Shown here: positions 7,676-31,735 of the stretch, in pieces
Layout of the letters: each line of letters opens with the position of its first letter
Numbering within the stretch: position 1 is the stretch's first letter
Virus record (IMG/VR): IMGVR_UViG_3300032241_002223
Location: 1-41,643 of that record
From: a virus
Direction: 5' to 3' (one strand)
Length of the DNA: 41,643 nt
Made by a program: the position numbers and the translations under genes
The notes under the pieces: generated by a model
What the model saw: only the letters and a program-made list of their open reading frames with translations
What the model was told of the DNA's origin: nothing
The model's database searches: none

Positions 7676-9177
7676 TGGAAAATATAGACCGTAATAGGGG
7701 ACAACCGCAAGGTTACAAATTTGATCGAGCAGGAACGTCAGCTGAATTTGGCCCGTTTGTGGGCGAAGTGATGAACAATGTGGATCCCACACGTGGTGGA
7801 CGACTGCAGGTGTACATTGAACAGTTTGCTGGCCCTAATAAAACTGACAAGAGCCTATGGCGCACAGTGAATTATGTTCCGCCATTCTATGGAGCCACCC
7901 CTAAACAAGGCAGTAGTGGAACTGGAACTTTTCTACAAGGTAATCAACAAAGCTATGGCATGTGGTTTACCCCGCCTGACATTGGAACTCAAGTGTTGTG
8001 TTTCTTTGTAGCTGGAGATCCTAACCAGGGCTACTATTTAGGATGTATACCTTTCCAAGGCGTCAATCACATGATTCCGGCTCTTGGTTCTGCACCCACA
8101 GCACAAGCCAAAACACAAAATCAAAATCAAGCAACTTATTTTGCTGGATCCAAACAGTTGCCTGTGACCGAAATCAATGTTGACAATGTCAAGATCAACG
8201 AAAACCCTAAATTCTTTACAGAACCCAAACCAGTACACAGCTATGTGGCTGGGGTACTGTTTCAACAAGGTCTTAACAACGACACAGTTCGCGGACCAAT
8301 CCTAAGCAGTAGTCAAAGAGAAAGTCCCAGTCAGTGCTATGGTATTTCAACGCCGGGTCGCGCAATCTATCAAGGTGGCCTGGATGACAGCAACGGAGCA
8401 GCTTCGTCGCAAGTGGCTGGAGAAAAGTTAGCCGACATCAAAGTTATTGGACGCAGAGGCGGCCACAGCTTTGTGATGGACGACGGTGACCTTGACGGCA
8501 AAGACAATCTTATACGTATTCGCACAGCCAAAGGACATCAAATCACCATGAGTGATGATGGCAACTGTTTTTACATTTGTCATGCCAACGGGCAAACCTG
8601 GGTTGAACTGGGCCAAGAAGGCACCTTAGATGTGTTTAGTACCAATAGTATTAATCTACGTACCGAAGGCACTATCAACTTGCATGCTGACCAGGATGTC
8701 AACATCTATGCTGGCAACAAGATGAATTTAAAAAGCAAGGCCGGAACCAGTTTACAAAGCGATGCCAAGTTAGATGTGGCCACCAAGGCAGCACTAACCC
8801 TGTTTGGTAGCAGTGTTGGAGTTAAAAGTAAAAGCACCTTGGCTCTCAAAGGTACAGCAACCAGCGTAGAAAGCGGAGGGCCATTGATATTAAAAGGACT
8901 TCCAATCAATTTAAACGGCGTTCCGGGATTTCCAGTATCCACGCCCACAGGTATAACCAAATATCTAAATCCAGATGTACAATTCGACAGCAGTGTAGGT
9001 TGGACGGTAAAACCCACCGGAACCGAAAGTATCTGCACAAGGGCACCCACACACGAACCGTATCCTTATCACAATCAAGGCGTACAGGACAGTGTAAGTT
9101 TAGAAAAAGGTCAGCCTGGTTCACCTCCAGGTGCTCCGGTATTACCAGATGATGTTTCAATAACCAAAACAGAATGA
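7675..9177 (+). CDS. 5: Central baseplate spike protein, gp5/VgrG-like, no lysozyme domain
   Basis: The trimeric membrane-piercing spike at the tail tip. Residues about 25-130 form an OB-fold-like domain: FGPFVGEVMNNVDPTRGGRLQVYI, then WRTVNYVPPFYG, MWFTPPDIGTQVLCFFVAG and GYYLGCIP. This is the gp5/VgrG N-terminal pattern. A linker of about 120 residues contains GRRGGHSFVMDDGDLDG, typical of this family. From about residue 265 to 410 short repeated strands (SINLRTEGTINLHADQDVNI and similar) predict an intertwined triple-stranded beta-helix. T4 gp5 carries a lysozyme domain between the OB domain and the helix; none is visible here. The C-terminus is proline-rich (GSPPGAPVLPDD). Start overlaps the previous stop (TAATG) and the end overlaps the next gene (ATGA). 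Confidence 0.88.
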   Translation: MENIDRNRGQPQGYKFDRAGTSAEFGPFVGEVMNNVDPTRGGRLQVYIEQFAGPNKTDKSLWRTVNYVPPFYGATPKQGSSGTGTFLQGNQQSYGMWFTPPDIGTQVLCFFVAGDPNQGYYLGCIPFQGVNHMIPALGSAPTAQAKTQNQNQATYFAGSKQLPVTEINVDNVKINENPKFFTEPKPVHSYVAGVLFQQGLNNDTVRGPILSSSQRESPSQCYGISTPGRAIYQGGLDDSNGAASSQVAGEKLADIKVIGRRGGHSFVMDDGDLDGKDNLIRIRTAKGHQITMSDDGNCFYICHANGQTWVELGQEGTLDVFSTNSINLRTEGTINLHADQDVNIYAGNKMNLKSKAGTSLQSDAKLDVATKAALTLFGSSVGVKSKSTLALKGTATSVESGGPLILKGLPINLNGVPGFPVSTPTGITKYLNPDVQFDSSVGWTVKPTGTESICTRAPTHEPYPYHNQGVQDSVSLEKGQPGSPPGAPVLPDDVSITKTE

Positions 9178-11049: not shown

Positions 11050-11424
11050 ATGGCTACTTTTATTGGATTTAATACTATCAATCAAAACAAGTATTTTACA
11101 GCCGTTGATTTTGACCTAATCAAAATTGACCTATTAAATGCTTTCAACATACGACAAGGTCAATTGCCAGGACGTCCTGGATATGGTACAACCTTATGGG
11201 ACAACCTGTTTGAAACACAAACACAAGAAACTTTACAAACAATCTATACTGAGGTGCAACGTGTGTGTGCCGGGGATCCTAGAGTATTTTTAAAAGATAC
11301 TCAAGTATTCCCACAAGAAAATGGCATACTCATACAACTGGAAATAACCACGGTCAGCAGTACAGATGCACAGATATTGGGAGTATTTTTTGACCAATCA
11401 CAACGTGTGGCTACCTACGTTTAA
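11050..11424 (+). CDS. 25: Baseplate wedge protein gp25
   Basis: 124 residues against 132 in T4 gp25. The GPW/gp25 family pattern is clear: an N-terminal strand region, the turn LPGRPGYGTTLWDNLFE (residues 39-55), an amphipathic helix (TLQTIYTEVQRVC), then AGDPRVF. DPR at residues 76-78 corresponds to the family's EPR core motif. The C-terminal strands follow (QLEITTVSSTDAQILGVFF). In T4, gp25 sits at the inner baseplate, links the wedge to the hub, and helps start sheath assembly. AAAGAG just upstream may serve as ribosome-binding site; a TAAATA at 11040-11045 overlaps the spacer. It is followed by gp6, the same neighbour as in many T4-like phages. Confidence 0.92.
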   Translation: MATFIGFNTINQNKYFTAVDFDLIKIDLLNAFNIRQGQLPGRPGYGTTLWDNLFETQTQETLQTIYTEVQRVCAGDPRVFLKDTQVFPQENGILIQLEITTVSSTDAQILGVFFDQSQRVATYV

Positions 11425-14400: not shown

Positions 14401-14911
14401 AGATACCACAGGCACAGTAACAGAACCTACACCGCCCACAATCAATGATCTAACTACAACCTATTCAACGTTGCAAGATTACAAAATGATCAGCGACAAT
14501 ATGATTTTGAACAGCGTAGAATTTCAGCCCTTGTTTGGTCAAACGGCCGATGCAGCCTTGCGTGCCACTATCAAAGTGATTCGTAGTACACAGAGCACTG
14601 CCAGTACCAGTGAAATTACAAATCTTGTTGTGGCCAACATGGATGCATATTTTAATCTTGCTGCCTGGGACTTTGGACAAACATTCTATTTTTCAGAGTT
14701 GGCCGCTTACATACATCAAAACATTGGCGATGTGGTCAGCAGTGTGGTGTTGGTTCCATTAGATCCACAAAAGAGTTTTGGAGATCTTTACGAAATTCGT
14801 TGCGCACCCAATCAAATATTTGTCAACGGTGCCACAGTAAACGATATCGAAGTGATCACTGCATTGACCAGTAACAATTTACAAACTGCCTCTGGTAGCG
14901 GAGTAATCTAA
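11471..14911 (+). CDS. 6: Baseplate wedge protein gp6
   Basis: A core wedge subunit that dimerises to form the continuous inner ring of the baseplate. The N-terminus is highly characteristic: EADFQSYDFETLRKTFVDYL, then YYPETFNDYIESSEFIALLD, MAFMGQSLAFRSDLNNRENY and AERRDSVIKLANLVSYVPLR (about residues 24-112). A Baseplate_J-like middle follows (ITLNFGDGIFGSIPVG near residue 340; QRAPAQYYTQNRMVNGEDYS near residue 420). The C-terminal part has DFQVEVSFSYGYGEAIP and ends with ELAAYIHQNIGDVVSSVVLV. At 1,146 residues it is nearly twice T4 gp6 (660); the extra sequence lies mainly in the second half. The stop overlaps the next start (TAATG). Confidence 0.93.
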   Translation: MATTARQTYVFGIEDWKRIYQTYREADFQSYDFETLRKTFVDYLRLYYPETFNDYIESSEFIALLDVMAFMGQSLAFRSDLNNRENYLSTAERRDSVIKLANLVSYVPLRNTEASGYLKVFSVTTTENVTDYNGIDLANITVNWADPTNLDWQEQFNTIVNAALVNTQRVGRPGASQDILGVNTQEYTINLVPGYIPVVPYTSNVNGVNMPFEVVNSTSTGETYVYEPPPLPNGQFNILFRNDQLGFASANTGFFFLFKQGILQNQDFNLTERITNRAVDINIEGINNSDVWLYQLDNVGNISSYWQTVQNIYAAAVEQLAGNTQDIYSISSRTNDQITLNFGDGIFGSIPVGTFRTYVRASNGLTYIVNPAEMQSVSVPISYVSRTGSIETITFVCGITEPVTNAQARETIDEIKQRAPAQYYTQNRMVNGEDYSNFPFTQYNSILKSTAVNRASIGTSRYLDLVDGTGKYSSTNTFASDGALYEANTLPAFRFSWITSNDIANVVYNQINPLLAKAGLKQFYYANTIRPSLASLNLTWHQSTVITNECTGYFQDSTGTAIAVGIYASNNARYIQPSSLILFTAPDGYYFDENNQLHAGVPTAPGQHLTIWASPTAVYLNGTAQGLGNLPSGVGPVVLNTFVPTGAIPLLVIPVLVTDLGTTLEQEIVNQIYLNQNFGLGYTSVGVYDKNNNLVYPAQSWYLITATNLAVNATYSTNGAGDTSGTNQDASWFIQCTTNGTNYTVESRSLNYYFGSVAQTRFFFYSNQPIYDSRTGTVVRDFVNVLKINSRPDSNYPLPGDNILNIIDQPVLSDGLTDDFQVEVSFSYGYGEAIPSNPDFFNDIVAPSVNPTTKLVFFQQTVDFDNLQRYLMLNQGVVNSDFPTQSAILLSLTQYNIGQVFYAYTEQVFYVLTVNSSGNQTLTVDNSYLALTGRQDLYFQYRHNSPLSSRIDPGSTNIIDVYIVTNEYYTAYNNWLKDTTGTVTEPTPPTINDLTTTYSTLQDYKMISDNMILNSVEFQPLFGQTADAALRATIKVIRSTQSTASTSEITNLVVANMDAYFNLAAWDFGQTFYFSELAAYIHQNIGDVVSSVVLVPLDPQKSFGDLYEIRCAPNQIFVNGATVNDIEVITALTSNNLQTASGSGVI

Positions 14912-17900
14912 TGGCTGATAATGTACGTTCGGTAGATTTTCTTCCTGAAATATTTCAGACACCGACTAACAAACAGTTTCTAGCTGCTACTTTAGATCAG
15001 TTAATACAAGAGCCAGCATTTAAAAAGAGCCAAGGATTTATTGGTCAACGTGTAGGTCCAGGCGTCAATGCCAACGATGGGTATGTGGTTGAGCCAACTG
15101 CATCACGTCGTGACTATCAATTAGAGCCTGGTGTTATTCAAATTAACCCGGCCAATACACATCAGGTTGTTGATGCTATTACCTATCCTGGAATCAACGA
15201 TGCCTTGTCGGTCGAAGGCGCCAATGTCACAGATCCTAGCAGTCTTTACAAGAGTGACTATTATGCCTGGGACCCATTTGTTGATTTTGACAAGTATATC
15301 AACTATGCTCAGTACTACTGGTTGCCATTTGGCCCATTACCAGTCACAGTAACATCTGGGGGCGTATCTCTTAGCGAAGATTATACAGTAACAAGAAACA
15401 ACGGTTATTATACATTCTCTGGAGTAAACGGTAATACTCCTAATTTAAATTTAGTACGTGGTGGCAGTTACAATTTTAACATAGCCCAAACCAACCAAGC
15501 CACTGTTCAATATCGTGTGACCAATACAGGTACTGCAAACTGGAACATTGACTATGAATCAAATCCAACATTAACGCTGACACGGGGCAATATCTACACA
15601 TTCAATTTAAGTCAAACAGCACCACTTAAATTTTATATCAAGACCGAAGCCAGCCTTGGAACAGTTAATCTCTACAACAACGGAGTCAATAACAATGGTG
15701 CCAGCGAGGGACTTGTTACGTTTACTGTTCCACAAGATGCTCCAGATACCTTGTATTATTCCAACGATGTTGAATTTAACTTGCGTGGAAAGATCAACAT
15801 TGTTAGTGCCACCCCGGGTACAGGTCCCGGATTTTGGATTCAAACCGATCCCGGAGTTAATGGCCGCATACCAGCAACACCCAACATCAGCAGTAGAGGA
15901 GTAGCAGGAGTAGTCAACAATGGTGTTGATCTCGGCACTGTTACGTTCAATGTTCCACTTAAAACTGACCAAGATTTTTATTATACTTTACCAAAATTTC
16001 CACCCGAACAACTCAACGGCACAGGCGGAACTGTTGATTTGGTAACCACACTGGCGTTTGATCAAATTGACGGAAAAAAAGTTTCAGATTTTTTAGCAGA
16101 AAATCCGCAAGGTATTGACGGTACAACCCAGTTAAAAAATCGCACACTGATATTTGCTGGCAGCAACAATGTAGACCCTAATCTCTACAATGTTTGGCTG
16201 ATTAGTTATGTAGGCACAGGTGCAGATCAACGATTAAAATTAGACATAGTATTTTATGTAGACAACCTGTCGCAGACCAGTATCCTGTTTGGCAACACGT
16301 ATAACAGTACTAAATGGTACAAAACAGCCGAGGGCGTATTTGAACAAATACCCTTGTTGAGTGCTACTCGCAACATACTGTACTACCAGGATGGTACCGA
16401 CCCTGCTATGTTTGGCACTATAACTTTGGTTGATCAAGCTTCACCAGCCTTGGATGTTTCTCAAATACTGGGCAGTAACACATACACCAGCCCTAACAAC
16501 GTGGTCTTTACCAATGGCATGATAGTGACCTTCCGCGGCGATACTGTTCCTGCCAGTTATCAAAACAACAGTTATTTTGTTGAAGGTGTAGGCACTGCTA
16601 TTACTCTGTCGCCTGTACAAAATTTTATCACACCAGAAACTTATACTGAAAATGCCACAATACCTTTTTCTAGTGCGCTGTTTGATCAAAACCCATTTGA
16701 CGGAATATTAAATGCACCACTGACTCCGGATTATCTTACCGTTAATCGTGCTGCCTTGGATCGCAATGCCTGGAGTCGTAGCAATCGTTGGTTCCATATT
16801 GATGTAATCACTGCGTCAGCCAAGTACAACAACACAGTTGCAATTTATGACAACAATTTTATAGCACGCAGACCTATTTTGGAATTCCGTGCTGGCACAA
16901 GATTGTTTGATTATGGAACCGAGGGGTTACCAGCAGTCAATATTATAAATTTTGATCAGACCAATGCCTTGCGCACGGTCAATGGATCTATTGGATTCAG
17001 CACCGATGGCTATACCTTGTTAAATGGTAGTACTATCATTTTTGCTGGCGATAACGACAATCAAGTTCGCAATCAAATTTATCAAGTTGAATTTATCAGT
17101 CCAGACACAGTGCAGCCTTTAATTGCAGAACCGGTGATCAACCTGGTTCCTATCTATACAGTTCTAGCTGATCAGAACACGGTTTGCATTGACGGTAATA
17201 CCTTACAGGGATTTTCCTACAGGTACGATGGGCTAGAGTGGATCAAGTGCCAACAAAAAACCAGTATCAATCAACCTCCAAATTTTGATGTGTTTGATCC
17301 TAACGGTGTTAGTTTTGGCGATCGCATCACTTATCCTAGTTCAACATTTACTGGCAGTCCCTTATTCAGCTATGCGCTTGGCAACGGCATAACAGATCCT
17401 GTCTTGGGATTTCCACTGGCCTATTTGAGCCTGACCAACATCGGCGACATTAAGTTTCAAAATAATCTTTACACCGACACATTCAATTATACCATTAACA
17501 ATCAAGGATATGTGGTAGATATCAGTACTGGGTTTGTGCGCGAGTATCAAGACCGTGTGATCTTCAAGAAAGAAATTGGTTGGCAATCAGCCGTAACACA
17601 GAGTCAGATGCGTCAGCAGTTCCAGTTTGTATACGACGGAAATCCACTACAACTAGATATTCTTGTGAATACAAATTCTGTAGTTCCTGCTGTACAAGTT
17701 TTTGTCAACGCCATGTTCCAGGAAAGTTATAACTATACTGTAACTAGGAATACCAACAACAACACCACCACAATCACTCTGTTGACCACCTATGTTCCGG
17801 GTGACCTGATTGAAGTGCAGGTCCTAAGCGATCAAACCAGTGCTACAGGTTTTTATCAAGTTCCTATCAACCTAGAAAACAACCCACTCAATGGCAACAG

Positions 17901-20900
17901 CAACTATTTTACATTGGGCACAGCAAGAAATCACTACAATACCATTGGTGAAAATTTAATTGGGCTTGAAGGGCCGATTATCGGTCCTAACAACACCAGA
18001 GATTTAGGTAACATTGTTCCTTATGGCCTACAGATACTACAGCAAAGTGCACCATTGACCCTGGCTGGATACTTCTTGCGTAGTACAGAATTTAATATTT
18101 TTGAAAGTTTAAACTACAACAGTCGCGAATACATTAAATTTAAATCACAACTGTTGAACACTGTGATTAGCAACGATTGGGGTACAAAAACCATACCAGA
18201 AATTTTAGATGCTGCCATGCTACTCATGAATGCAGGCGATACCAAACTGAGTCCGTTTTATTGGAGTGACATGTTGCCGTCTGGTAGTGTGTATAGTTCC
18301 AACAGCTACACTGTTAATGCCATCACTACCAACGGATTCAACACAATACAGACTTATGATTTTACCACGTCAAATTATTTGGGATTATTGGTTTATATCA
18401 ACGGCGTCCTGCTGACACGCAATATAGAATATGTAGTCAGTACAGACACTCCAATATTGACTATTTTGGTACCACTCAACGTAGGTGATGTAGTAACCAT
18501 TAACGAATACAACAATACCACCGGCAACTATGTGCCTAACACTCCGACCAAGTTGGGCCTGTACCCTAAATATCGTCCTGAGTTTTATCTTGACAAGACT
18601 TATTTAAACCCAACATTTGTAATACAAGGCCACGACGGTAGTACCACTGTGGCATTTGGTGATTTGAGAGATCAAGTTCTATTGGAGTTTGAAACACGTA
18701 TCTATAACAACTTGAAGAATGATGGTAATCCGGTACCGTTAACCAGCGAAGATGTAATTCCGGGATTTTTTAGAACCACAGACTACAGTCTTGAAACTAT
18801 TAATCAAATACTCGGCGAAGATTTTTTAGCATGGGTTGGCTACAACAAACTAGATTACACCGCACAAGATTACTTGCCAGCAGATGAATTTACCTACAAC
18901 TATTCTGGGTCTGGAATTAAGTTAGTGAATGGTGCAATCAGCAACGTTAACGAATCGGCCTTGACACAGGGCGCCTGGCGCGGCATTTATCGTTACTTCT
19001 ATGATACCTTTACACCCGACACAACTCCGTGGGAAATGTTGGGCTTTACAGAACAACCTACCTGGTGGGCCGGACGATACGGTCCTCTGCCTTACACCAG
19101 TGACAACTTGGTGCTGTGGGGTGACCTCGAAGCCGGCTATGTGGCTGACCCTGTGGCACCTTATATCAATCCAAAATATGCAAGACCTGGACTTACTTCG
19201 GTAATTCCTGTTGATGATCAAGGCGTACTAATGCCACCATTGGAATCGGTAGTGGGACTATATGATCCTAACAATTTTAAACGTAGTTGGAAAGTTGGCG
19301 ACGGTGGACCAGTGGAAGCGTCTTGGTGGATGAGTTCCAGTTATCCGTTTGCAGTCATGCGCCTGTTGGCCCTGACCAGACCTGCAGAATTTTTCAGCCT
19401 GTTTGCAGATCGAGATCTATACAGATACAACACAGATTTAGACCAGTATCTTTACAACAATCGTTATAGATTAAACAGCAACGGATTAGAAATTTATGGC
19501 AATGGCGTCAGCAAAGCCAGCTACATTGATTGGATTGTAGATTACAATCAGCAACGTGGTCTTAACAGTACCGACATCTTGACACAAGATCTAGCCAACT
19601 TGGATGTACGACTGTGTTATCGCATGGCAGCCTGGACAGCACAAAATTATCTTGAAATATCGTTAGAGAAATCCAGCCCAGAAAGTCAAAATCAAAGCCT
19701 GTACATTCCGCCCGAAAGTTATAATCTTTTGGTCTATAAAGATCAACCCTATGATCGAATCACTTACAGTGCTGTAATTGTCGAACGAGTTGCTGACGGG
19801 TATGCAGTGTACGGCTACAGCAATACCAATCCTTATTTCCCAGTACAGGTCAGCTCGCCCAACGGTGTTTATCAAACTGTTTCGGCCGGCGGCACATCGG
19901 TACAAGTACCAGCACAATATACCGATTCAGTAACCTACATACCCTATGGTTATGTGTTCAACAACACAACCATGGTGGTTGACTTTTTGTTGGGCTACGG
20001 GCAATATCTAACTGCACAGGGACTTACATTTACCTACATTGAAAATGGTTATGTAGTGAATTGGGCGCAGATGGCCCAGGAATTCTTGTATTTTTCACAG
20101 CAGGGCTGGAGTGACGGTACTATTATCAATCTCAACCCTGGTGCCAATCAGCTGACTGCGTATCAAGTTGGCGCTGTAGTAGACAACATCATCAGCTACG
20201 GTCCTGCAAATCAACTGTTGGATCAAAATCGTCAGACCTTTGCCACTAGAGACTTAGTAATACAACGCTACGGCGACACATTTACCATACAGCCTGGTCC
20301 AAGCACAAGTCAAGCAATCAGTTTCTTAGATTTAAAATTTACTGATTATGAAAACATGATCGTGTTTGACAATGTAGACGTATTCTTGGATTTGATTTAC
20401 GATCCTATCACTGCAACACGTCAAAATCGCCTGTACCTGGATGCTTTCAACAGCACCGAATGGGATGGCACGCTAAATGCCCAAGGATTTATACTCAACT
20501 ACAATGATGTTGAAGCCTGGTCCAGCACACAACGCTATACCAAGGGCGAGATTGTTCAATACAAAAACGGCTACTGGCAGGCTGCCGGCCTAGTACAGCC
20601 CAAAGCGCAGTTTGACTACAATGACTGGTACAAGAGCAACTACGCCATGATTGATCAAGGCCTATTGCCCAACTTGGCCAACAAGGCCGACCAGTTGGCC
20701 AATACCTACAACACACAAACAGCCAATCTCAACAGCGACAACGATCTCCTGGCCTATAACCTGATTGGCTTCCAGCCACGTCAATACATGGTTGATTTAA
20801 ACTTGGATGATGTGAGCCAGATCAATCTGTATCAACAGTTTATCAAGACCAAAGGTAGCCTGCGTGCTGCAGAATTATTGACACAGGCACAGTTCACCAA

Positions 20901-23900
20901 AGAAACTGGACAATACAATATCTATGAAAACTGGGGTGTGTTGGTTGGAACCTATGGTGCCAATGCCAACCGTAGCTACTTTGAAGTACTTCTTAATCAG
21001 GCCAATTTGACCAGCAACCCCAGCACAGTGCAGATCATCTATCCAGGTGAAACCAGCCAGGCCGATCAGACAGTCTTACTGCAAAATATTTGGAGTTCAA
21101 GTTATAATATTCCTTCTCCCGATATCTTGCCTACTACCTATATAAGCAGTACAAATACTGCATTACCGTCGGCTGGATATGTCAATCTTGATGATGTAGA
21201 TATCACTGTATTCAGTCTGGACGATCCGTCCAACATAGCCAGCCAAATCAACACAATTGGAACTGGTACCAGTATCTGGGTGGCCAAGGATAACAGTTAC
21301 AACTGGAACGTATATCGTTGTACCCAAATTCCAGGACGCATTACTCAGGTAACCGACAATCTCAACGGCACCAGTCTGGTAACACTGAGCCAGACCACTG
21401 GTCTTGCTGTGGGTGATCTAATTATTGTACGTTATTTTGCCACCGGAATCGATGGTGTTTATCGTGTCCTGGCCACGCCATCTATAAACTCTATTGTGGT
21501 TTCCTACTCGTTTACCAGTACCAGTCAAACTACCATTTACAGCAACGGCAACGGTCTAGTATGGCGCCTGCAAACCATGCGAGTCGCACAACCAAGTGAC
21601 GTGGCCTCCTTGCCATATGCCGGCGAGTTAGTGGCCGGTGCTAGAGCCTGGGTTGATAACAACGCATCAGGCTATTGGGAAGTTTTAGAAAAAACAGATC
21701 CTTACACTCAAGTAAGTACCTTAAATGCATCGCCTACACAGATCGATGATTTATTTGGCACCAGTGTCACACAACCCAGTGATAACAGTACCATCCTGAT
21801 AGGAACACCTGGATACGATGGCTCTGGATCTATTGACAGTTATTATCGTGCCGAAGGTGGTACCTATGTAAAAGGATCAGTAATAACAATCAATGCAGTA
21901 GATACCGTAGGCTTTGGCCAGGTAGTAACGTATGGCAATCAAAACTGGATCGCAGTAGGCGCACCACTCAGTAACGACAACAAAGGTTATGTAACAGTAC
22001 TCAATCAAGACAAGGTAAGCAATCGCCTGTTGACAACACAACTGATAGCATCTCCGGAATACTATCTAAACACACTGGGCTTTGGTACAGCAGTCAAAAT
22101 CAGTCAGGACGAACAGTGGTTGTACATCACCGGCCCAGGCCATAATCGTGTATATGCCTATACTCAAACCGACGAACCTTTACAGTCAGTTGAATATATT
22201 ACTGATGGTTTTTCGATTGTGTACAACTGGGCCAATTCAATCAAGGCCAATTATCAAAATCCAGAACAGTTTATAGTAACTTTAAATAATCGTGGACTGC
22301 AATATCAAGTTGATTATTCTATAACACCAAATGCAATACAGTTGTTTAAACCACCAGAATCCGGACAATTACTAACAATCAGTCGTAGAGCCACGATAGT
22401 TCTGGAAGGCGATGGATCTACCAGCGCCTTTAACTTGTCAGCATATCTTTACACCGTGACCAATATAGATAGTTTTACTGTCACTGTGAATGGCGTGTTG
22501 CAACGGCCTTACATTGATTACATTTATAATACTGGCAGCCAGGAAAATTTAGTCACGCTCGAAGGCGAATATTTACACACCGACTCAGGACAACAATTTG
22601 TAGTTAACTCAGCCAACACCGGATTGTTATTCACAGTGGCCCCATCTGCAGGTGCACAAATTTCAATTTTTGCTGGTACCTATTGGAACTATGTCACTAT
22701 CATTCCAACTGCTGGACTTGGGTTGGTAACTGGATCTAATTTTGGTAGTAGTCTAGACATCAGTGCCGATGGACGCACCTTGTTGATTGGTGCCGACAAT
22801 GTTGATACTACTGATGCCGAAGGCAACACTGTACCGCATGCTGGTGCAACCTATGTGTTTGATCGCAGTGTTATTAGATACATTGTCAACGATGTCACAC
22901 AAAAGATTTACCCAATGACTGGACCAATCAATGATCCAGTACAGGTCCTGTTGAACGGAACTTACTTGACCAACGTAGACTCGGTGATCAATGGTCAATT
23001 TAGTGTCGTAGGAACCAATGTCATACTGTCTGACTCGGTTACTTTAAATATCGGCGACGAGTTAGAAATCAATACCAATCAGTTTCAATTCGTACAAAAA
23101 TTATCGGCTAATACTCCAATTGACGAATCCTTGTATGGTGCGTCGGTTGCCCTGAGCCCAGACAGCGCCAGTGCGTACATTGGAGCTCCATACGATAGCA
23201 ACATATTCACGCAGGCTGGATCCATACAACATCAGGTCAATCAAAGTGTCAAGTATGGTGTGATTGTAAGCGACATAGCCAATCCCACTTTAAACCCAGG
23301 TGATACTATACGCATCAACAATGTCGAAGTTGTTGTTCCGTCTAGTCCAAACAACAACATAGCAGGATTAGCAGCGGCCATTACACCGTCTGAGTGGGTC
23401 AGTCAGCAGACCTACTATACCAACGATCGTGTGATATATCAAAATAATTGTTATGTTGCATTGACCAGTAGCACAGGACAAAAACCAGCTGGTACAAAAA
23501 TCAGCGCATCATTCTGGAAACTTAGTTTTATTATACCAAATGTTTCTGCTACATTGACCAGTAATCTTACATTTACTGGTAATGCAATCAACAAGGTATT
23601 TGATATTGGAAACTTATACTCATCGGCCAAATCCTATACCACAGTGGTATATGTTGACGGAGTATTGCAGACCAATGGAGTAGACTACACTTATAACAAT
23701 ACCACTCAACAGATTTTGTTTGTATCTCCACCGGCTGACTCGACTGTAATCACTGTGTTTGCAGGTCGTTTGATATTGAGTATAATCGATTCTAACACCA
23801 TACCACGATACAACAAACTTTCAGTATTGCCGGGCACAGTTGGCACAACATTCTATGACGTTGGATTTACCACTTATATCTATGCACAAACTGTGTACAG

Positions 23901-26900
23901 TCCAAACCCAGTCAACTACGGAGGATTTGGAGCCACGCTGGCTATTAGTACCGATTCTCAAACAGTAATAGTAGGGTCACCAAATGGCAATGCGTACGAA
24001 CGCATGGTATTTGACGGTGGTCATACCATATTTGATGAAAACAGTACTATTTTTAGTAATCCAGTTACTAACTCTGGAGTAGTGTACACATTTGACCTGT
24101 TGAGCAGTTCCAATCAATCAGCAACCAACCAAGCTCAGTTAGTGCCCGGCCAGCAGATTTACACCAACTCATTAGCAACAGGTGATAGATTTGGAACCGG
24201 CATAAATCTCACCAATGGACGATTAGTAGTAGGTGCACCCGGCGGAATCAGCTACGGAACAGCCACAACTTTTGACAACTTGCAAAATCTACCGGCCTGG
24301 AGACCAGTGCATGTACAACAACCAGTGGTTGATGTGAGTTTGATCAATTCTGTCTACTCATTTGACAAATTGTTAAGCAGTACACAAACCTATTATGATT
24401 TCATTGATCCATTGCAAGGCAAAATCTTAGGAGCAGCTCGCAGCAACATTGACTACATAGGTGCCGTGGATCCTGCCAGCTACAACAAGGGCACAGTACA
24501 TAATAATGGAACCACATGGGGAGCAGATCATGTGGGTGAAATTTGGTGGGATACCAACTTGGTACGATTTGTCAATCCAAATCAAGATGATATTGTGTAT
24601 GCCAGCCGTCGTTGGGGACAAACATTTCCAGGTAGTCGGGTAGACATTTATCAATGGATTGAAAGCTCAGTTCCGCCTGCACAGTACACAGGTCTGGGTA
24701 CTCCGTTGAGTACTGTCAGTTATACAGTAGGATCTGTTCTAGGACTCAACGGCCTGTTCTCGGCCACATACTATTATTGGGTAAGAAACATACCCACCAC
24801 AGACAGTGGCAATGGTAAAACATTAAGCACCACAGCCATTGCCAGTTACATTCAATACCCGCTTAATAGTGGCATTCCTTACATAGCACCTTTAAACGCC
24901 AGTACTGTGGCCCTGTACAACACCATATCAAACAATTTGATCAGTGCCAACAACACAGTGTTACACGTTGAATTTGAACGTCAAGCCGCAGGTGCCAGCA
25001 ACAACATACATCAGGAGTATGCGTTTATCACGGATGGTCGTGCAGAAAGTTTTTTAAACAACAGCCTGTACAGAAAATTGCAAGACAGTTTGTGTGGTGA
25101 GGACACCGCAGGTAATCCTGTGCCAGATCCATTCTTAAGTCCGGGGCAACGCTATGGAGTTGAATTCCGTCCAAGACAAAGCATGTTTAGTGATCGGTAC
25201 TTGGCCTTAGAAAATTATTTGACCAGAGTCAATACTATTTTAGCCCAGTATCCAATCGGTGAAACACGCAATTTTAGTTTGTTAAACAGCGCAGAGGCAA
25301 TTCCTACACCTGTGGTTTCCACAGCTACTAAATCCAACATACAGGGAGATCTGTTGACTCTGGGCGGCACAATAACAGGTTCCTTTGAAATTGGCATGAC
25401 CTTGTCTGGAAATGGCATTCCTCCATTTACCACTATCAATGGACTGGGTCCTACCGCAGGAACCTATATTATAGATACCAGTTTAAATTTGGACAGCGTG
25501 AATCTTACTGGAACAGCCGGTTACAACGGGCAAGTACCCACACTAGAAGTGCTGGGCTATCAAGACCTGTATGTAGTGCCACTGGGATACCTGTATCTAG
25601 TTGAGTCGGATTCTAGTCAAAATGGTCGCTGGACTGTGTATGAAGTAACACTTGACAGCACTGGATTTAACCGCACTACACAGCTGGTACGCATACAAAA
25701 TTATGACACACCACTCTATTGGAATTATATCAACTGGTATCTTCCTGGATACAACACTGACACACAACCGGTGGCACAGGTGCAAAACTCCGGAGATTTA
25801 TTAAGTTTAAGTTTGATCCAAGCACCAATTGGCAGTAGCGTGCAAGTGACCAACTACGGCAGTCGCGGTCTGTGGGAAATATTCCTGCGTACAGCTGGAG
25901 ATTTGACCATATCAGACTGGACACGAGTTGGCCTACAAAACGGCACCATTGCATTCAGCGAAAAGCTGTGGGACTACTCAGTGGGCCAATACGGATTTGA
26001 TGCGCAGGTATTTGATGTACAATATTTTGACCAGGAACCTGTGATTGAAACAAGAAATATCATACAAGCAATCAACGAACAATTATTTGTCGATGATCTG
26101 TTGATATTCCGTAATCAGTGTTTGATCTTGTTGTTTAATTTTGTTTACAGCGAATTTACAGCACCGGACTGGTTGATAAAGAGCAGTTTCATTGATGTAG
26201 ATCACAAGTTACGCGGCCTGTATCCATACCAGTTGTATCAAAAAGACAATCAAACCTTTGTGGAAGATTATATAAATGAAATCAAACCCTACCACGTACA
26301 AACTCTAGCATTTAATTTAATTTACGACGGGCTAGATACATACGGCGGCGAAATTAGTGATTTTGATTTGCCAGCCTATTGGAAAACAGATTTACAAATT
26401 CCACAATTTGTCAGCCCAGTCCTGACTCCGTACACACTGTCAGGAAGTCTGATTGAATCAATCAACAGCGACACCGCATCAAATGCCGCCGTGTGGTCAG
26501 AGTGGCCTTGGTCCGATTGGTTCAACAATTATACCCTGGAGATTGAGTCAGTAGAAGTGGTCAATGGCGGTAGTGGGTACACAGTGCCACCTACTATAGT
26601 TGTTACTGGTAATTGCATTGAGCAGGCCACTATGGAAGCAGTGATCAGTAATTCTGGTCGAGTGATAGGTGTAAATGTTTTAAATCCTGGAAAAGGATAT
26701 TTAAGCACAGCCATAATCACACTGTCAGGTGGCAACGGCACAGGTGCACAGGTAGTGGCAGTCATGAACAATAACCTGGTGCGCAGTTTCAAAACCACAA
26801 TAAAATATGATCGTTACCAGTATGCATCCACTATTCATGAATGGCAAGCTGACGTGACTTATACCGAAGGCAGTCAGGTACGTTGGAACAATGTAGTTTG

Positions 26901-29607
26901 GTCATCCAACTCCACTCAAAGTTCTACGGTGTTTGACCCAATGCAATGGACTCGTGTACAAGCCAATAGCCTTAGCGGGGTTGATCGTACCATGGGCTTT
27001 TATGTACCAGGAGTCAATCAGCCAGGCCTTAGTTTGCCCTTGTTGATCGATGGAGTTAGTTATCCAGGCGTCCAGGTTCAAGCACCAAGCTATAATCAAA
27101 ATACTGGGTTTGATGTGGGCAACTATGACATCAATCCGTTTGACAATATTTCATATGATGCAGAAGGACGTTACACCTATGATCCAAGAATTCTAGATGC
27201 TATATATTCCAGTAGTTACTTGGATTTTTATCTAGGCACAAGACCCACAGATATCAATGTTGATGGCGGTGGATACATAGACACATTCAGCAGTTATGCT
27301 CCAGAGGAATTGGTTCCAGGTAGCGAATTTGATACCCTAGACATGCGTGTGTACACTACCCCGGGCGCCGATTGGCAAGGTCGAGGTCACGGATTCTTAG
27401 AAGTATTTGAAAAATTTGTATTTGATCCATTATTGCCAACTAGAAGTTTTGCCATGTTGGTACCATATCCTGCCCAGGTTCGAGTCAGTAACCAAACACA
27501 ACAGATAGATCTAGTCGAAGGCGTAAATTACACAGTGGATTGGGCCAATCAGACTATAACTGTAACCAATGCTAGACCTGGCGACCTTATAGTCGTTGCG
27601 GCTTTTGAATTGGGCGGCGGCAATCAGATATACAAAAATGTTTACAATGGTGGCGAATTACCTACCATCACAATCGGAACTACAACTCACAGTTATGTGA
27701 TATTGCCAGTGGAATATCTGCAGGCCAACGGTGTTGCCAACATAGAAGAAATGGCAATCTTTATCAATGGAACATTGACCACCAGTTATTCCTATACCGT
27801 TGATGGATACAATCAAACTCGTGTGACATTTACTGACCAGTTGACCAGCAGTGATTTTGTAAGTTTATTTGTGTTGTCACCCACAACAATCAATGGTGTA
27901 ACAACAGATTACAGCTGGAGCACTCCACTAACACAAGTTATAACAGCCACAGGTACCAACAGTTATGTGCTGGACAACAGCATGGCCTATACCAATCCTA
28001 ACAATTTGATTGTATCGGTCAACGGTGCCAGAGCCAGAATGAGTGGTGGCGCCAGTTATACTGGAGACAATTATACTACACAATTTAGATTGCCTGACCG
28101 TTTGGGCGTTACTCAAAGTAGCATAAACAGTGCTGCAGTAACAGTATACATCAACGGACAACCGTTGACCAGCGATCAATGGACACTGTCCCCAGTGGTC
28201 GGCGAATCAACACGTTATGTAACCTTACATACAGCGCCAGTTTCTAAATCAACTGTACAGGTTTATGTACAGGCCAATCCACAGTGTGTAGTAAGCGATG
28301 GCGTATTGACCTTTGTTCCTGGTGCCGGTCTGGTTCCACCTGCTGGGTCAACCATTGCTGTAACATCGTGGAATGATACAAGACAACAAGGCTTATTAAC
28401 ACAGTTGTTTGTTGGCCCTATTGTTACTGGAGTTACAGTATCAGAAGGGTTTGACGATACCAACTTTGATCCGTTGTTTGTTGGTGAAATACAATTGGCA
28501 GATGTTCCTGGACCATTTACATCTGACACGTTGACCATAGGCAAACTTTATCAAATTTACATAACAGGCAATACCAACTGGATCTTGTGCGGTGCACCCG
28601 ACAACAATCCTGGAACCACATTTGTGGCCACAGGTACAGCACCAGGCACAGGCCAGGCCTATGCAATCGAGTATGTACGCAGTGATGCTGACAACGGATT
28701 TAATGGTGAACCTGGATCGTTTGATCGTCAAGTAGGCGAAACTGCCCTGACCAACGCTATTGATCTTGGAGTTCAAATAACCAATCCAGATCGCTTATGG
28801 GTATATTTTAATGGTAAACGTTTGTTCAACGGCAATGGATACACATTATCTGGCCAATTTTTAATTTTAAGTTTGGGCACAATGCGCCCAACAGACCAAC
28901 TTATAGTCACACAGTTTACCAACTATGTGGTTCCAGAAGCCATGGTATTCCGCATATTCCAAGACATGCGCGGAGTACAGGCCACATATCGTATAACTGC
29001 CGATACTACTACAACCTTGACAATGTCTGTGGCACAAACTGATGATGTTATCAATGTGGCCAATGCTGCTGCACTGCCTGCTCCAAATCTTTCTGCAGAT
29101 ACCTGGGGAGTAGTGACCATTGATGCTGAACGTATCATGTATCGTTATCGCGACACAGTAAACAATACCATTAGTGGTCTGTTACGTGGCACAGCAGGAA
29201 CTGCCTGTGCTCCGCATGCAGCAGGAACAGAAGTTTATAGCATGGGTCCGGGTCAGTTGTTGTACTCAGAATATCAAAATTACGTGGTCAGTGACACTAC
29301 ATTGGCCAACGGAACCCAAACTGTATTTGTGGCCAGCAATATCAATGTTAGTGATCTTTCTGTAACTCAACAATCAGAGGCTGTACAAGTATATGTAGGT
29401 GGAATTCGGGTACAATCTGGCTATACATTAACCAACAACAATCCTGCTACTGTAACATTTACTACCGCACCACCCGAAGGTGTAGACGTTACTATCCTGG
29501 TACAACGCGGAGTTACCTGGTATGCACCAGGCCCAGGCACTGCCAGCGACGGAAATTCGTTGCAGGAAACCAACACTATACCTGCAAGGTTTTTACAGGG
29601 GCATTAA
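14911..29607 (+). CDS. Giant gp7-like baseplate wedge/tail-fibre structural protein, 4,898 residues
   Basis: A single uninterrupted frame of 14.7 kb. The N-terminus has the gp7-type block found in aquatic T4-like phages: VRSVDFLPEIFQTPTNKQFL, QGFIGQRVGPGVN, DYQLEPGVIQIN, VDAITYPGIN and YYAWDPFVDFDKYINYAQYY (residues 5-145). A cupredoxin-like segment lies at about 220-290 (TFTVPQDAPDTLYY), probably without metal ligands. Later parts hold three carbohydrate-binding-like modules, seven FG-GAP-type blades, a GGSGY/GKGY beta region near 3880-3955, and about eleven VYVNG-type repeats, mostly in the last 900 residues. T4 gp7 has 1,032 residues. GGAG at 14900-14903 and a TAATG overlap fix the start. 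It probably forms the wedge periphery and surface-contact structures; an adhesive role is inferred from the modules. Confidence 0.85.
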   Translation: MADNVRSVDFLPEIFQTPTNKQFLAATLDQLIQEPAFKKSQGFIGQRVGPGVNANDGYVVEPTASRRDYQLEPGVIQINPANTHQVVDAITYPGINDALSVEGANVTDPSSLYKSDYYAWDPFVDFDKYINYAQYYWLPFGPLPVTVTSGGVSLSEDYTVTRNNGYYTFSGVNGNTPNLNLVRGGSYNFNIAQTNQATVQYRVTNTGTANWNIDYESNPTLTLTRGNIYTFNLSQTAPLKFYIKTEASLGTVNLYNNGVNNNGASEGLVTFTVPQDAPDTLYYSNDVEFNLRGKINIVSATPGTGPGFWIQTDPGVNGRIPATPNISSRGVAGVVNNGVDLGTVTFNVPLKTDQDFYYTLPKFPPEQLNGTGGTVDLVTTLAFDQIDGKKVSDFLAENPQGIDGTTQLKNRTLIFAGSNNVDPNLYNVWLISYVGTGADQRLKLDIVFYVDNLSQTSILFGNTYNSTKWYKTAEGVFEQIPLLSATRNILYYQDGTDPAMFGTITLVDQASPALDVSQILGSNTYTSPNNVVFTNGMIVTFRGDTVPASYQNNSYFVEGVGTAITLSPVQNFITPETYTENATIPFSSALFDQNPFDGILNAPLTPDYLTVNRAALDRNAWSRSNRWFHIDVITASAKYNNTVAIYDNNFIARRPILEFRAGTRLFDYGTEGLPAVNIINFDQTNALRTVNGSIGFSTDGYTLLNGSTIIFAGDNDNQVRNQIYQVEFISPDTVQPLIAEPVINLVPIYTVLADQNTVCIDGNTLQGFSYRYDGLEWIKCQQKTSINQPPNFDVFDPNGVSFGDRITYPSSTFTGSPLFSYALGNGITDPVLGFPLAYLSLTNIGDIKFQNNLYTDTFNYTINNQGYVVDISTGFVREYQDRVIFKKEIGWQSAVTQSQMRQQFQFVYDGNPLQLDILVNTNSVVPAVQVFVNAMFQESYNYTVTRNTNNNTTTITLLTTYVPGDLIEVQVLSDQTSATGFYQVPINLENNPLNGNSNYFTLGTARNHYNTIGENLIGLEGPIIGPNNTRDLGNIVPYGLQILQQSAPLTLAGYFLRSTEFNIFESLNYNSREYIKFKSQLLNTVISNDWGTKTIPEILDAAMLLMNAGDTKLSPFYWSDMLPSGSVYSSNSYTVNAITTNGFNTIQTYDFTTSNYLGLLVYINGVLLTRNIEYVVSTDTPILTILVPLNVGDVVTINEYNNTTGNYVPNTPTKLGLYPKYRPEFYLDKTYLNPTFVIQGHDGSTTVAFGDLRDQVLLEFETRIYNNLKNDGNPVPLTSEDVIPGFFRTTDYSLETINQILGEDFLAWVGYNKLDYTAQDYLPADEFTYNYSGSGIKLVNGAISNVNESALTQGAWRGIYRYFYDTFTPDTTPWEMLGFTEQPTWWAGRYGPLPYTSDNLVLWGDLEAGYVADPVAPYINPKYARPGLTSVIPVDDQGVLMPPLESVVGLYDPNNFKRSWKVGDGGPVEASWWMSSSYPFAVMRLLALTRPAEFFSLFADRDLYRYNTDLDQYLYNNRYRLNSNGLEIYGNGVSKASYIDWIVDYNQQRGLNSTDILTQDLANLDVRLCYRMAAWTAQNYLEISLEKSSPESQNQSLYIPPESYNLLVYKDQPYDRITYSAVIVERVADGYAVYGYSNTNPYFPVQVSSPNGVYQTVSAGGTSVQVPAQYTDSVTYIPYGYVFNNTTMVVDFLLGYGQYLTAQGLTFTYIENGYVVNWAQMAQEFLYFSQQGWSDGTIINLNPGANQLTAYQVGAVVDNIISYGPANQLLDQNRQTFATRDLVIQRYGDTFTIQPGPSTSQAISFLDLKFTDYENMIVFDNVDVFLDLIYDPITATRQNRLYLDAFNSTEWDGTLNAQGFILNYNDVEAWSSTQRYTKGEIVQYKNGYWQAAGLVQPKAQFDYNDWYKSNYAMIDQGLLPNLANKADQLANTYNTQTANLNSDNDLLAYNLIGFQPRQYMVDLNLDDVSQINLYQQFIKTKGSLRAAELLTQAQFTKETGQYNIYENWGVLVGTYGANANRSYFEVLLNQANLTSNPSTVQIIYPGETSQADQTVLLQNIWSSSYNIPSPDILPTTYISSTNTALPSAGYVNLDDVDITVFSLDDPSNIASQINTIGTGTSIWVAKDNSYNWNVYRCTQIPGRITQVTDNLNGTSLVTLSQTTGLAVGDLIIVRYFATGIDGVYRVLATPSINSIVVSYSFTSTSQTTIYSNGNGLVWRLQTMRVAQPSDVASLPYAGELVAGARAWVDNNASGYWEVLEKTDPYTQVSTLNASPTQIDDLFGTSVTQPSDNSTILIGTPGYDGSGSIDSYYRAEGGTYVKGSVITINAVDTVGFGQVVTYGNQNWIAVGAPLSNDNKGYVTVLNQDKVSNRLLTTQLIASPEYYLNTLGFGTAVKISQDEQWLYITGPGHNRVYAYTQTDEPLQSVEYITDGFSIVYNWANSIKANYQNPEQFIVTLNNRGLQYQVDYSITPNAIQLFKPPESGQLLTISRRATIVLEGDGSTSAFNLSAYLYTVTNIDSFTVTVNGVLQRPYIDYIYNTGSQENLVTLEGEYLHTDSGQQFVVNSANTGLLFTVAPSAGAQISIFAGTYWNYVTIIPTAGLGLVTGSNFGSSLDISADGRTLLIGADNVDTTDAEGNTVPHAGATYVFDRSVIRYIVNDVTQKIYPMTGPINDPVQVLLNGTYLTNVDSVINGQFSVVGTNVILSDSVTLNIGDELEINTNQFQFVQKLSANTPIDESLYGASVALSPDSASAYIGAPYDSNIFTQAGSIQHQVNQSVKYGVIVSDIANPTLNPGDTIRINNVEVVVPSSPNNNIAGLAAAITPSEWVSQQTYYTNDRVIYQNNCYVALTSSTGQKPAGTKISASFWKLSFIIPNVSATLTSNLTFTGNAINKVFDIGNLYSSAKSYTTVVYVDGVLQTNGVDYTYNNTTQQILFVSPPADSTVITVFAGRLILSIIDSNTIPRYNKLSVLPGTVGTTFYDVGFTTYIYAQTVYSPNPVNYGGFGATLAISTDSQTVIVGSPNGNAYERMVFDGGHTIFDENSTIFSNPVTNSGVVYTFDLLSSSNQSATNQAQLVPGQQIYTNSLATGDRFGTGINLTNGRLVVGAPGGISYGTATTFDNLQNLPAWRPVHVQQPVVDVSLINSVYSFDKLLSSTQTYYDFIDPLQGKILGAARSNIDYIGAVDPASYNKGTVHNNGTTWGADHVGEIWWDTNLVRFVNPNQDDIVYASRRWGQTFPGSRVDIYQWIESSVPPAQYTGLGTPLSTVSYTVGSVLGLNGLFSATYYYWVRNIPTTDSGNGKTLSTTAIASYIQYPLNSGIPYIAPLNASTVALYNTISNNLISANNTVLHVEFERQAAGASNNIHQEYAFITDGRAESFLNNSLYRKLQDSLCGEDTAGNPVPDPFLSPGQRYGVEFRPRQSMFSDRYLALENYLTRVNTILAQYPIGETRNFSLLNSAEAIPTPVVSTATKSNIQGDLLTLGGTITGSFEIGMTLSGNGIPPFTTINGLGPTAGTYIIDTSLNLDSVNLTGTAGYNGQVPTLEVLGYQDLYVVPLGYLYLVESDSSQNGRWTVYEVTLDSTGFNRTTQLVRIQNYDTPLYWNYINWYLPGYNTDTQPVAQVQNSGDLLSLSLIQAPIGSSVQVTNYGSRGLWEIFLRTAGDLTISDWTRVGLQNGTIAFSEKLWDYSVGQYGFDAQVFDVQYFDQEPVIETRNIIQAINEQLFVDDLLIFRNQCLILLFNFVYSEFTAPDWLIKSSFIDVDHKLRGLYPYQLYQKDNQTFVEDYINEIKPYHVQTLAFNLIYDGLDTYGGEISDFDLPAYWKTDLQIPQFVSPVLTPYTLSGSLIESINSDTASNAAVWSEWPWSDWFNNYTLEIESVEVVNGGSGYTVPPTIVVTGNCIEQATMEAVISNSGRVIGVNVLNPGKGYLSTAIITLSGGNGTGAQVVAVMNNNLVRSFKTTIKYDRYQYASTIHEWQADVTYTEGSQVRWNNVVWSSNSTQSSTVFDPMQWTRVQANSLSGVDRTMGFYVPGVNQPGLSLPLLIDGVSYPGVQVQAPSYNQNTGFDVGNYDINPFDNISYDAEGRYTYDPRILDAIYSSSYLDFYLGTRPTDINVDGGGYIDTFSSYAPEELVPGSEFDTLDMRVYTTPGADWQGRGHGFLEVFEKFVFDPLLPTRSFAMLVPYPAQVRVSNQTQQIDLVEGVNYTVDWANQTITVTNARPGDLIVVAAFELGGGNQIYKNVYNGGELPTITIGTTTHSYVILPVEYLQANGVANIEEMAIFINGTLTTSYSYTVDGYNQTRVTFTDQLTSSDFVSLFVLSPTTINGVTTDYSWSTPLTQVITATGTNSYVLDNSMAYTNPNNLIVSVNGARARMSGGASYTGDNYTTQFRLPDRLGVTQSSINSAAVTVYINGQPLTSDQWTLSPVVGESTRYVTLHTAPVSKSTVQVYVQANPQCVVSDGVLTFVPGAGLVPPAGSTIAVTSWNDTRQQGLLTQLFVGPIVTGVTVSEGFDDTNFDPLFVGEIQLADVPGPFTSDTLTIGKLYQIYITGNTNWILCGAPDNNPGTTFVATGTAPGTGQAYAIEYVRSDADNGFNGEPGSFDRQVGETALTNAIDLGVQITNPDRLWVYFNGKRLFNGNGYTLSGQFLILSLGTMRPTDQLIVTQFTNYVVPEAMVFRIFQDMRGVQATYRITADTTTTLTMSVAQTDDVINVANAAALPAPNLSADTWGVVTIDAERIMYRYRDTVNNTISGLLRGTAGTACAPHAAGTEVYSMGPGQLLYSEYQNYVVSDTTLANGTQTVFVASNINVSDLSVTQQSEAVQVYVGGIRVQSGYTLTNNNPATVTFTTAPPEGVDVTILVQRGVTWYAPGPGTASDGNSLQETNTIPARFLQGH
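20512..20640 (+). other. Carbohydrate-binding-like module 1 in the giant protein
   Basis: Residues about 1868-1910 read AWSSTQRYTKGEIVQYKNGY and continue to a final Asp-x-Trp. The spacing W...Y..G..V.Y....W followed by a closing tryptophan is that of small chitin/cellulose-binding modules of the CBM5/12 type, which use exposed aromatic residues to bind glycans. Two further copies occur in the same protein. Assigned by pattern only. Confidence 0.5.
21740..24250 (+). other. Seven FG-GAP-type blades, a probable beta-propeller in the giant protein
   Basis: Seven segments start with an aromatic-Gly motif and continue to an I/V-G-A/S-P type strand: LFGTSV (about 21751), GFGQVV (21907), GFGTAV (22075), NFGSSL (22735), LYGASV (23128), GFGATL (23920) and RFGTGI (24184). 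Several carry the paired strand, for example NWIAVGAP, TLLIGAD, AYIGAP, TVIVGSP and LVVGAP. Seven is the number of blades in an integrin-type propeller. Blades 3-4, 4-5 and 5-6 are separated by inserted VYVNG-type modules and one carbohydrate-binding-like module. Confidence 0.65.
23392..23526 (+). other. Carbohydrate-binding-like module 2 in the giant protein
   Basis: Residues about 2828-2872 read EWVSQQTYYTNDRVIYQNNC, continuing through YVALTSSTGQKP to FWKLS. The W...Y..ND.V.Y....Y...........FW pattern matches CBM5/12-type modules. It is inserted between propeller blades 5 and 6, where it would project from the propeller surface. Confidence 0.5.
26839..26960 (+). other. Carbohydrate-binding-like module 3 in the giant protein
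   Basis: Residues about 3977-4017 read EWQADVTYTEGSQVRWNNVV, then WSSNSTQSS and a closing FDPMQWTRV. The aromatic spacing and the DP..W ending are the same as in the other two modules. It directly follows the GGSGY/GKGY beta region at about 26545-26770. Confidence 0.5.
27475..29520 (+). repeat. VYVNG-type beta modules in the C-terminal part of the giant protein
   Basis: A diverged module of about 45-55 residues recurs: a strand V.V.VNG.., a YTV turn, a strand with F or V, then P..GD.I.V. Copies in this region include AIFINGTLTTSYSYTV, LIVSVNGARARMSG, VTVYINGQPLTSDQWTL, LWVYFNGKRLFNGNGYTL and VQVYVGGIRVQSGYTL. Further copies lie upstream near 17700, 18390, 22470, 22940 and 23645. They are protein-level repeats with no evident nucleotide identity, so the duplication is old. 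Confidence 0.7.
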
Positions 29608-29623
29608 TCTAGCTAAATAAATC

Positions 29624-30390: not shown

Positions 30391-30418
30391 ATATGAGTAT
30401 ATTAATGTACGGTAAATA
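30387..30418 (+). promoter_or_regulatory. Two late-type promoter motifs in the gap before the fibre-like gene
   Basis: ATAAATAT at 30387-30394 overlaps the upstream stop codon and GTAAATACA lies at 30412-30420. Both resemble the T4 late core. The second lies about 23 bases before the ATG at 30441, with CGGAG at 30427-30431 between them as ribosome-binding site. The 50-base gap is otherwise empty. Confidence 0.42.
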
Positions 30419-30440
30419 CAACAAGACGGAGTAAGAAAAC

Positions 30441-31721
30441 ATGTCATACACAATTAACCTAACTGATGGCGCTATATTTGCTGTCATTCCTGACGGTACA
30501 ATAAACACCAGCAGTAGCATGACGCTGGTGGGCAAAAACTATGCCGGTTACGGTCAATTCTTAGACACCAATTTTATACAACTGTTAGAAAATTCATCCA
30601 ACACTACTCCTCCTGGAGCACCGCTTACAGGTCAGTTGTGGTGGGACAGCGGAAACAGTCTATTACAAGTTTACAACGGATCACAGTGGAAAACAATTAG
30701 TAGTGCTACATCCAGCTCAACAGCACCAACAAACAACGTCCAGGGCGATCTTTGGTATGATAGCGGACAACAACAATTAAAAGTTTGGACAGGAACCACA
30801 TGGTTATTGGTTGGTCCTAACTACAGTAGTGGTACTGGTGTCACTGGAGCATTTGCCAGCGTAATCGTCGACAATGCTACCATCAGTCACAAGGTAATTG
30901 AATTGGTTGTAAACAATGCTGTCATCGGTATTGTCAGTGAAGATGCATCATTTGTTCCACAAAGTACTATTCCAGGTTTTGCCAACGTAAATCCTGGCAT
31001 ACAGTTGGCCAGTACAATAGGCGGTCAAACTCCACAGTTCTGGGGCAATTCAAGTGGCACCAATCAGTTGAACGGATTGACCAGTAGTCAATTCATGCGT
31101 GCCGATATCAATACACAGACCACAGGTACACTTGGTGTTGTTAACAACACTGGATTAACGGTAGGAGCAGGACAAGACTTTAGAGTCAGCGTAGCCAATA
31201 CCAATGTTACAGTGGCCAATCAAACGTCAGGCGGCAACATTGCCTTTGTAGTAAACGTAGCAGGAACACCTACCACAGCAATGACTATTTTTGGTGCCAA
31301 CGGTACAATCCAAGGCACACAGATCACAGCGCAATATGCTGACGTTGCTGAACGCTTTGAAGCCGATGCTGTTTTGGAAGCAGGTACAGTGGTTGAACTG
31401 GGCGGCTCTGCAGAAATTACTCAAAGTACTACGGAATTGAGCGACAAAGTGTTTGGGGTCATAAGTACGCAAGCAGCATATCTAATGAACAGCTCAGCTG
31501 GTTCCGATGCAACACATCCAGCAGTGGCCATGACCGGACGAGTTCCTGTAAGAACCATTGGTGCAGTACGCAAAGGCGACAGATTAGTTTCGGCTGGCAA
31601 CGGCCTAGCTCGAGTGGCTCAGCCAGGAGAAGCTACAGCGTTTAACGTGATTGGTCGTGCGCTCAAAGACAAATTGGATAGTGGCATAGGTACTGTAGAA
31701 GCCATAGTCACAATCAAATAA
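30441..31721 (+). CDS. Tail fibre-like protein with possible C-terminal self-cleaving chaperone-type domain
   Basis: 426 residues. The N-terminus has two copies of a short module common in fibre proteins of aquatic myoviruses: GQLWWDSGNSLLQVYNGSQW (about residues 63-82) and GDLWYDSGQQQLKVWTGTTW (about 102-121). The middle is beta-rich and repetitive. From about residue 297 a distinct domain begins (QYADVAERFEADAVLEAGTV), continues KVFGVISTQAAYLMNS, and has VAMTGRVPVRTIGAVRKGDR near the end. This order (YA...E.FE, GTVV.L, GVIS, GRVPV...G.V..GD.L) resembles the Peptidase_G2/intramolecular chaperone domains at fibre C-termini that help trimer folding and may cleave themselves off. Cleavage here is not demonstrated. 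CGGAG supports the start. Confidence 0.75.
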   Translation: MSYTINLTDGAIFAVIPDGTINTSSSMTLVGKNYAGYGQFLDTNFIQLLENSSNTTPPGAPLTGQLWWDSGNSLLQVYNGSQWKTISSATSSSTAPTNNVQGDLWYDSGQQQLKVWTGTTWLLVGPNYSSGTGVTGAFASVIVDNATISHKVIELVVNNAVIGIVSEDASFVPQSTIPGFANVNPGIQLASTIGGQTPQFWGNSSGTNQLNGLTSSQFMRADINTQTTGTLGVVNNTGLTVGAGQDFRVSVANTNVTVANQTSGGNIAFVVNVAGTPTTAMTIFGANGTIQGTQITAQYADVAERFEADAVLEAGTVVELGGSAEITQSTTELSDKVFGVISTQAAYLMNSSAGSDATHPAVAMTGRVPVRTIGAVRKGDRLVSAGNGLARVAQPGEATAFNVIGRALKDKLDSGIGTVEAIVTIK

Positions 31722-31735
31722 CACAGGAATAAAAA

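Follow-up and report, generated by a model that had tools for sequence, protein, structure and literature searches.

Contractile-tail triggering is governed by baseplate wedges. In phage T4, the inner baseplate contains the (gp6)2-gp7 heterotrimer, in which gp6 has 660 aa and gp7 has 1,032 aa. Cyanophage genes that follow gp6 and are annotated as gp7 ("baseplate wedge initiator") encode proteins of 4,446 aa in P-HM1, 3,007 aa in S-SSM7, and 6,619 aa in S-SZBM1, and 71 virion peptides of the S-SZBM1 protein were detected by mass spectrometry (PMC9146016). The phage S-SSM7 carries two giant genes (15461–24484 and 25550–32189) with one smaller gene between them, both annotated as gp7.

The closest described relatives of the protein studied here belong to PHROG 10938, which includes RaK2 gp465, PA5oct gp355, Atu_ph07 gp180, and 121Q gp582. 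These proteins share with it the same full-length collinear core. Orthologues of 3,323–4,555 aa that align along this core were found in eight isolated jumbo phages. PA5oct gp355 is a virion protein according to its ESI-MS/MS annotation. CBB_236, which adjoins the gp6 gene CBB_237 and is assigned as an orthologue by gene position alone, yielded 21 peptides from virions (PMC5259590). Earlier records already cover the family of the giant protein, its gene position, its size class, and its presence in virions; what is new is that a predicted propeller occurs clade-wide and that the VYVNG units have been identified. A dedicated account of giant baseplate proteins, or of FG-GAP repeats in phage baseplates, was not found in the literature searched, which lay mostly outside subscription journals.

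The window analyzed in this study is a virus record of 41.6 kb (IMGVR_UViG_3300032241_002223), which is probably a genome fragment. The giant ORF is one uninterrupted ATG-to-stop frame of 4,898 codons, occupies 35% of the record, and has an ATG that overlaps the stop codon of the preceding ORF. The coordinates, strand, and length reported in an earlier sequence-only reading were exact. That reading also described the protein as nearly five times the T4 size. The length is correct, and the precedent was understated, as cyanophage gp7 proteins of 4,446 and 6,619 aa are annotated and the larger one is found in virions. The length and position of the giant are ordinary within its own family, and the protein is large and informative, yet not unprecedented. 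The features of the locus are listed in Table 1.

Table 1. Positions of the annotated genes and protein regions in the window.
Feature	Position	Strand	Basis
gp53-type wedge gene, collinear with RaK2 gp455 and PA5oct gp348	4574..4873	+	tblastn: PA5oct 46%, also RaK2, 121Q, Munch
gp5-type hub/tail lysozyme gene	7675..9177	+	PHROG 13211 E 5e-38; tblastn to PA5oct gp350
gp25-type wedge gene	11050..11424	+	tblastn E 9e-12 to 3e-14, gp25-position gene of RaK2, PA5oct, others
gp6-like wedge gene, 1,146 aa	11471..14911	+	PHROG 10646 E 2.5e-271; PHROG 219 E 2e-22
Giant wedge-position structural protein, 4,898 aa	14911..29607	+	PHROG 10938 E 1e-277
N-terminal block, residues 1–140, conserved in all family members	14911..15330	+	Alignments
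Clade insert, residues 180–580	15448..16650	+	Absent or poorly represented in RaK2-like phages
Conserved core, residues 581–1860, with two VYVNG modules (926–975, 1157–1203)	16651..20490	+	Alignments
CBM5/12-like (chitin-binding-domain fold) module, residues 1865–1913	20503..20649	+	AlphaFold model, VIA-align
gp7-like helical "KGT" motif (QFIKTKGS), residues 1949–2000	20755..20910	+	hhalign against gp7 motif profile
Seven FG-GAP repeats, residues 2281–3143, VYVNG modules between blades	21751..24339	+	Pfam FG-GAP_2 E 7e-15, above cut-off
Conserved core block, residues 3146–3480	24346..25350	+	Found in all named orthologues
Conserved core block, residues 3541–3880	25531..26550	+	Alignments
Variable tract of VYVNG (T7-fibre-anchor-like) modules, residues 4188–4672	27472..28926	+	Largely missing in L013
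Tail-hub/baseplate-type beta module, residues 4695–4782	28993..29256	+	VIA-align Z 10.2 to JBD30 baseplate chain b
Last VYVNG module, residues 4823–4868, ahead of conserved C-terminus	29377..29514	+	Module profile, fold matches
Conserved virion-locus gene, 206 aa	29770..30390	+	PHROG 11259 E 1e-75; 38–54% identity, 8/8 named phages
Separate fibre-like protein with IMC auto-processing-type (Peptidase_G2) domain	30441..31721	+	Pfam PF11962, 28 bits, cut-off 25

The gene order gp53-...-gp5-...-gp25-gp6-giant was the same as in RaK2-like phages (tblastn). The PHROG 10938 phages share the placement of the giant gene directly after gp6, and the gp25-gp6-giant order is also that of the cyanophages P-HM1, S-SSM7, and S-SZBM1. 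The gp6-like protein matched TIGR02243 with an E-value of 3e-12, under the cut-off of the model. Among the complete IMG/VR loci, a gp6-like ORF of approximately 1,140–1,200 codons lies directly upstream of the giant nearly without exception. The Salicola phage SCTP-2 is an exception to this order, as its giant gene and gp6-like match are not adjacent. Its giant gene (9771–21194) has a very large 9.3-kb ORF as upstream neighbor instead of gp6, and the gp6-like match is located approximately 90 kb away.

The profile of PHROG 10938 matched the giant along the core in four stretches (E = 1.3e-277). Alignments showed that a common core of approximately 3,300 residues runs across the family and makes up the whole protein in RaK2. 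Residues 180–580, 1861–1920, 2160–3120, and part of 4200–4680 are absent or poorly represented in the named phages. Both termini are conserved among relatives (LPEIFQT in the N-terminal and ARFLRG in the C-terminal sequence). The sequence-only reading had listed cupredoxin-like, propeller, carbohydrate-binding-like, and VYVNG-type modules. The propeller, as seven FG-GAP repeats, and approximately 10 VYVNG copies were recovered, and the carbohydrate-binding-like module was recovered at the fold level, whereas neither Pfam nor PDB profiles confirmed the cupredoxin-like block. For residues ~180–580, there was no PDB profile match, and Pfam gave only weak matches to other families. One Cys is kept in several members of this region, and the canonical copper-ligand set was not seen by eye. 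PDB profile searches with the full giant and with the propeller returned nothing useful. The CBM5/12-like module was closest to the baseplate chain P1 of phage Milano (Z 7.1) and was followed by the chitin-binding domains of chitinases and deacetylases (Z 5–6, VIA-align). This fold match spans 45 residues at Z 5–7, with a Pfam score under the cut-off.

The seven FG-GAP repeats imply a predicted seven-bladed propeller at residues 2281–3143. FG-GAP_2 was found in all 23 members scanned, and exactly seven repeats were present in 40 of 47 clade proteins. The named phages of PHROG 10938 have no FG-GAP propeller (0 in 8/8) and only 0–2 VYVNG modules, whereas the giant has seven repeats and approximately 10 VYVNG modules.

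The VYVNG profile matched phage tail or fibre adaptor proteins and one depolymerase N-terminus in the PDB, with E-values from 1e-5 to 1e-3. Phage_T7_tail was matched at E = 1e-7 by the copy of one relative and at 0.0074, under the cut-off, by a copy in the window. VYVNG shares its fold, and in some copies its sequence, with the N-terminal domain of T7 gp17-type fibres and with podovirus tail adaptors. The difference is that VYVNG occurs approximately 10 times in one wedge-position protein, with some copies between propeller blades. The AlphaFold model of the C-terminal region (pLDDT 83) matched the N-termini of T7-like fibres (Z 8–9) and also resembled baseplate chains of phiKZ, P1, and phi812; cyanophage wedge initiators were among its fold matches as well. 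Most of these matches had Z <10, and each covered one module of approximately 70 residues. Residues 4695–4782 superposed on JBD30 chain b with an rmsd of 2.0 over 78 residues, and Rcc01698_C was matched at E = 0.0035. The resemblance of the VYVNG modules to T7-type fibre anchor and adaptor domains suggests docking rather than receptor binding.

We consider it probable that the giant is the gp7-position wedge protein of a jumbo myovirus related to RaK2 and Atu_ph07, with a core that pairs with the gp6-like protein and added modules that lengthen the arm and dock fibres. The core of approximately 3,300 residues would pair with the gp6-like protein in the baseplate wedge, the role of gp7 in T4. 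We infer this role from the gene order, the presence of relatives in virions, and the weak interior gp7 motif. The clade has extended the core by insertion of an N-terminal beta-rich insert, CBM5/12-like modules, the predicted seven-bladed FG-GAP propeller, and approximately 10 small beta sandwiches resembling the T7 fibre anchor. These additions most likely form a longer wedge arm and fibre-docking surfaces at the baseplate rim. The occurrence of giant gp7-position proteins in both jumbo phages and cyanophages points to module accretion as a widespread route to larger wedges, and the fibre-anchor character of VYVNG leads to the testable idea of docking sites for extra fibres. A bolder and doubtful picture is a large undescribed clade of jumbo phages in which a single wedge chain of approximately 5,000 residues, carrying an integrin-alpha-like propeller interrupted by fibre-anchor modules, would extend outward from the gp6 ring at the center as far as the rim where fibres dock, serving at once as a scaffold, an arm, and an organ of adhesion or docking.

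The gene position makes the gp7 label plausible, since the giant follows gp6 directly in the wedge operon, as gp7 does in T4. The likeness to T4 gp7 consists of this place after gp6, the status of a wedge component by position, and possibly a weak KGT motif; the length differs (1,032 vs. 4,898 aa). The Pfam families Gp7_helical, Gp7_5th, and Gp7_6th all matched T4 gp7, and none of them matched the giant, either whole or in pieces. Comparison of whole blocks of the giant with gp7 by hhalign (T4 and X1 references) gave nothing significant. PHROG 2885, a wedge family of 4,179 positions, had a weak match to T4 gp7. The conserved gp7 helical motif DFYxSKGTxxSxxxLF was used as the reference. The best window for the motif profile (11 proteins, DFYxSKGT) was residues 1949–2000, with a score of 23.1 and an E-value of 0.0026, and the best reversed decoy was close at 20.7. 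The alignment spans 52 columns and is centered on the KGS/KGT motif. An N-terminal LPxxF motif was rejected as the gp7 start, the N-terminal window being outside the top profile matches. The N-terminal gp7-type block proposed earlier is not supported by the profile comparison, and the sole gp7-like signal is interior and weak. The cyanophage giant gp7 proteins differ in this respect, as they start with a recognizable gp7 helix and the DFYxSKGT motif; no FG-GAP repeats were found in them, and no full-length homology to the giant in the window was detected. The AlphaFold model of residues 1560–2190 had a mean pLDDT of 68, with the gp7-like helices at low confidence. Its Foldseek and VIA matches mostly concerned the CBM-like module or were sandwiches of a general adhesin type, and no gp7 chain was among the matches listed for this low-confidence model.

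The giant may instead be an unrelated peripheral structural protein encoded after gp6, with the true gp7-like core located elsewhere, for example, in the gp6-like protein, whose 1,146 aa are almost twice the length of T4 gp6. The lack of a significant gp7 sequence or domain match also speaks for this explanation. We regard it as unlikely, as the place directly behind gp6 is conserved, the cyanophage giant in that place is annotated as gp7, and the gp7 motif is the top-ranking window of the giant.

The sequence-only reading had further proposed that the wedge protein absorbed short-fibre or receptor-binding functions. A giant in the wedge position built by module accretion is supported by our results; the absorbed role is not supported. 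Under that proposal, the propeller and the variable C-terminal modules would touch host ligands and replace short tail fibres. The added modules (propeller and VYVNG tracts) evolve approximately twice as fast as the core. The propeller and the C-terminal modules are the fastest-evolving parts of the giant, with gains and losses in the C-terminal tract. Together with the CBM-like folds, this would fit contact with the host. On the other hand, the VYVNG modules match anchor and adaptor domains and not fibre tips, the fibre-like gene downstream is separate, the CBM-like module is also a chain in the baseplate complex of phage Milano, and the RaK2-like relatives lack the propeller and have few VYVNG modules. 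We regard absorbed receptor binding as unlikely, although the propeller may still bind a receptor. The separate fibre-like protein was similar to proteins of the named phages at its N-terminus or C-terminus (tblastn).

Relatives of the giant are encoded in 80 IMG/VR loci, of which 66 contain the entire ORF; in these, the giant is kept as a single ORF of 4,368–5,112 aa (median 4,753), and 58 of the 66 are shorter than that of the window. The comparison of the window with L010, L013, and L022 gave pN of 0.05–0.35 and pS mostly of 0.6–0.8 in every domain, with dN well below dS over the full length. An assembly- or sequencing-derived fusion of at least two genes, for which nothing but the unusual length speaks, is extremely improbable because relatives carry the same gene as one ORF, isolated phages have collinear full-length orthologues, and dN stays well under dS throughout.

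The comparison of the window with L010 showed that pS was 0.30–0.46 at 20491–21390 (residues 1861–2160) and approximately 0.73 elsewhere in the gene. This drop points to recent recombination in the stretch that holds the CBM and KGT features.

Other observations were made in the window. The ORF 9174–11033 matches a hub/lysozyme PHROG and contains a 27-bp tandem repeat of the GSLGSLG type (10590–10748) with a weak collagen-like Pfam match. Three closely spaced radical-SAM-type ORFs are located at 36141–37523, 38447–39901, and 39882–41138, the last of which matches NCBIfam N_Twi_rSAM (E = 8e-116). Radical SAM genes are also present a short way downstream of the giant in Atu_ph07 and Phosso.
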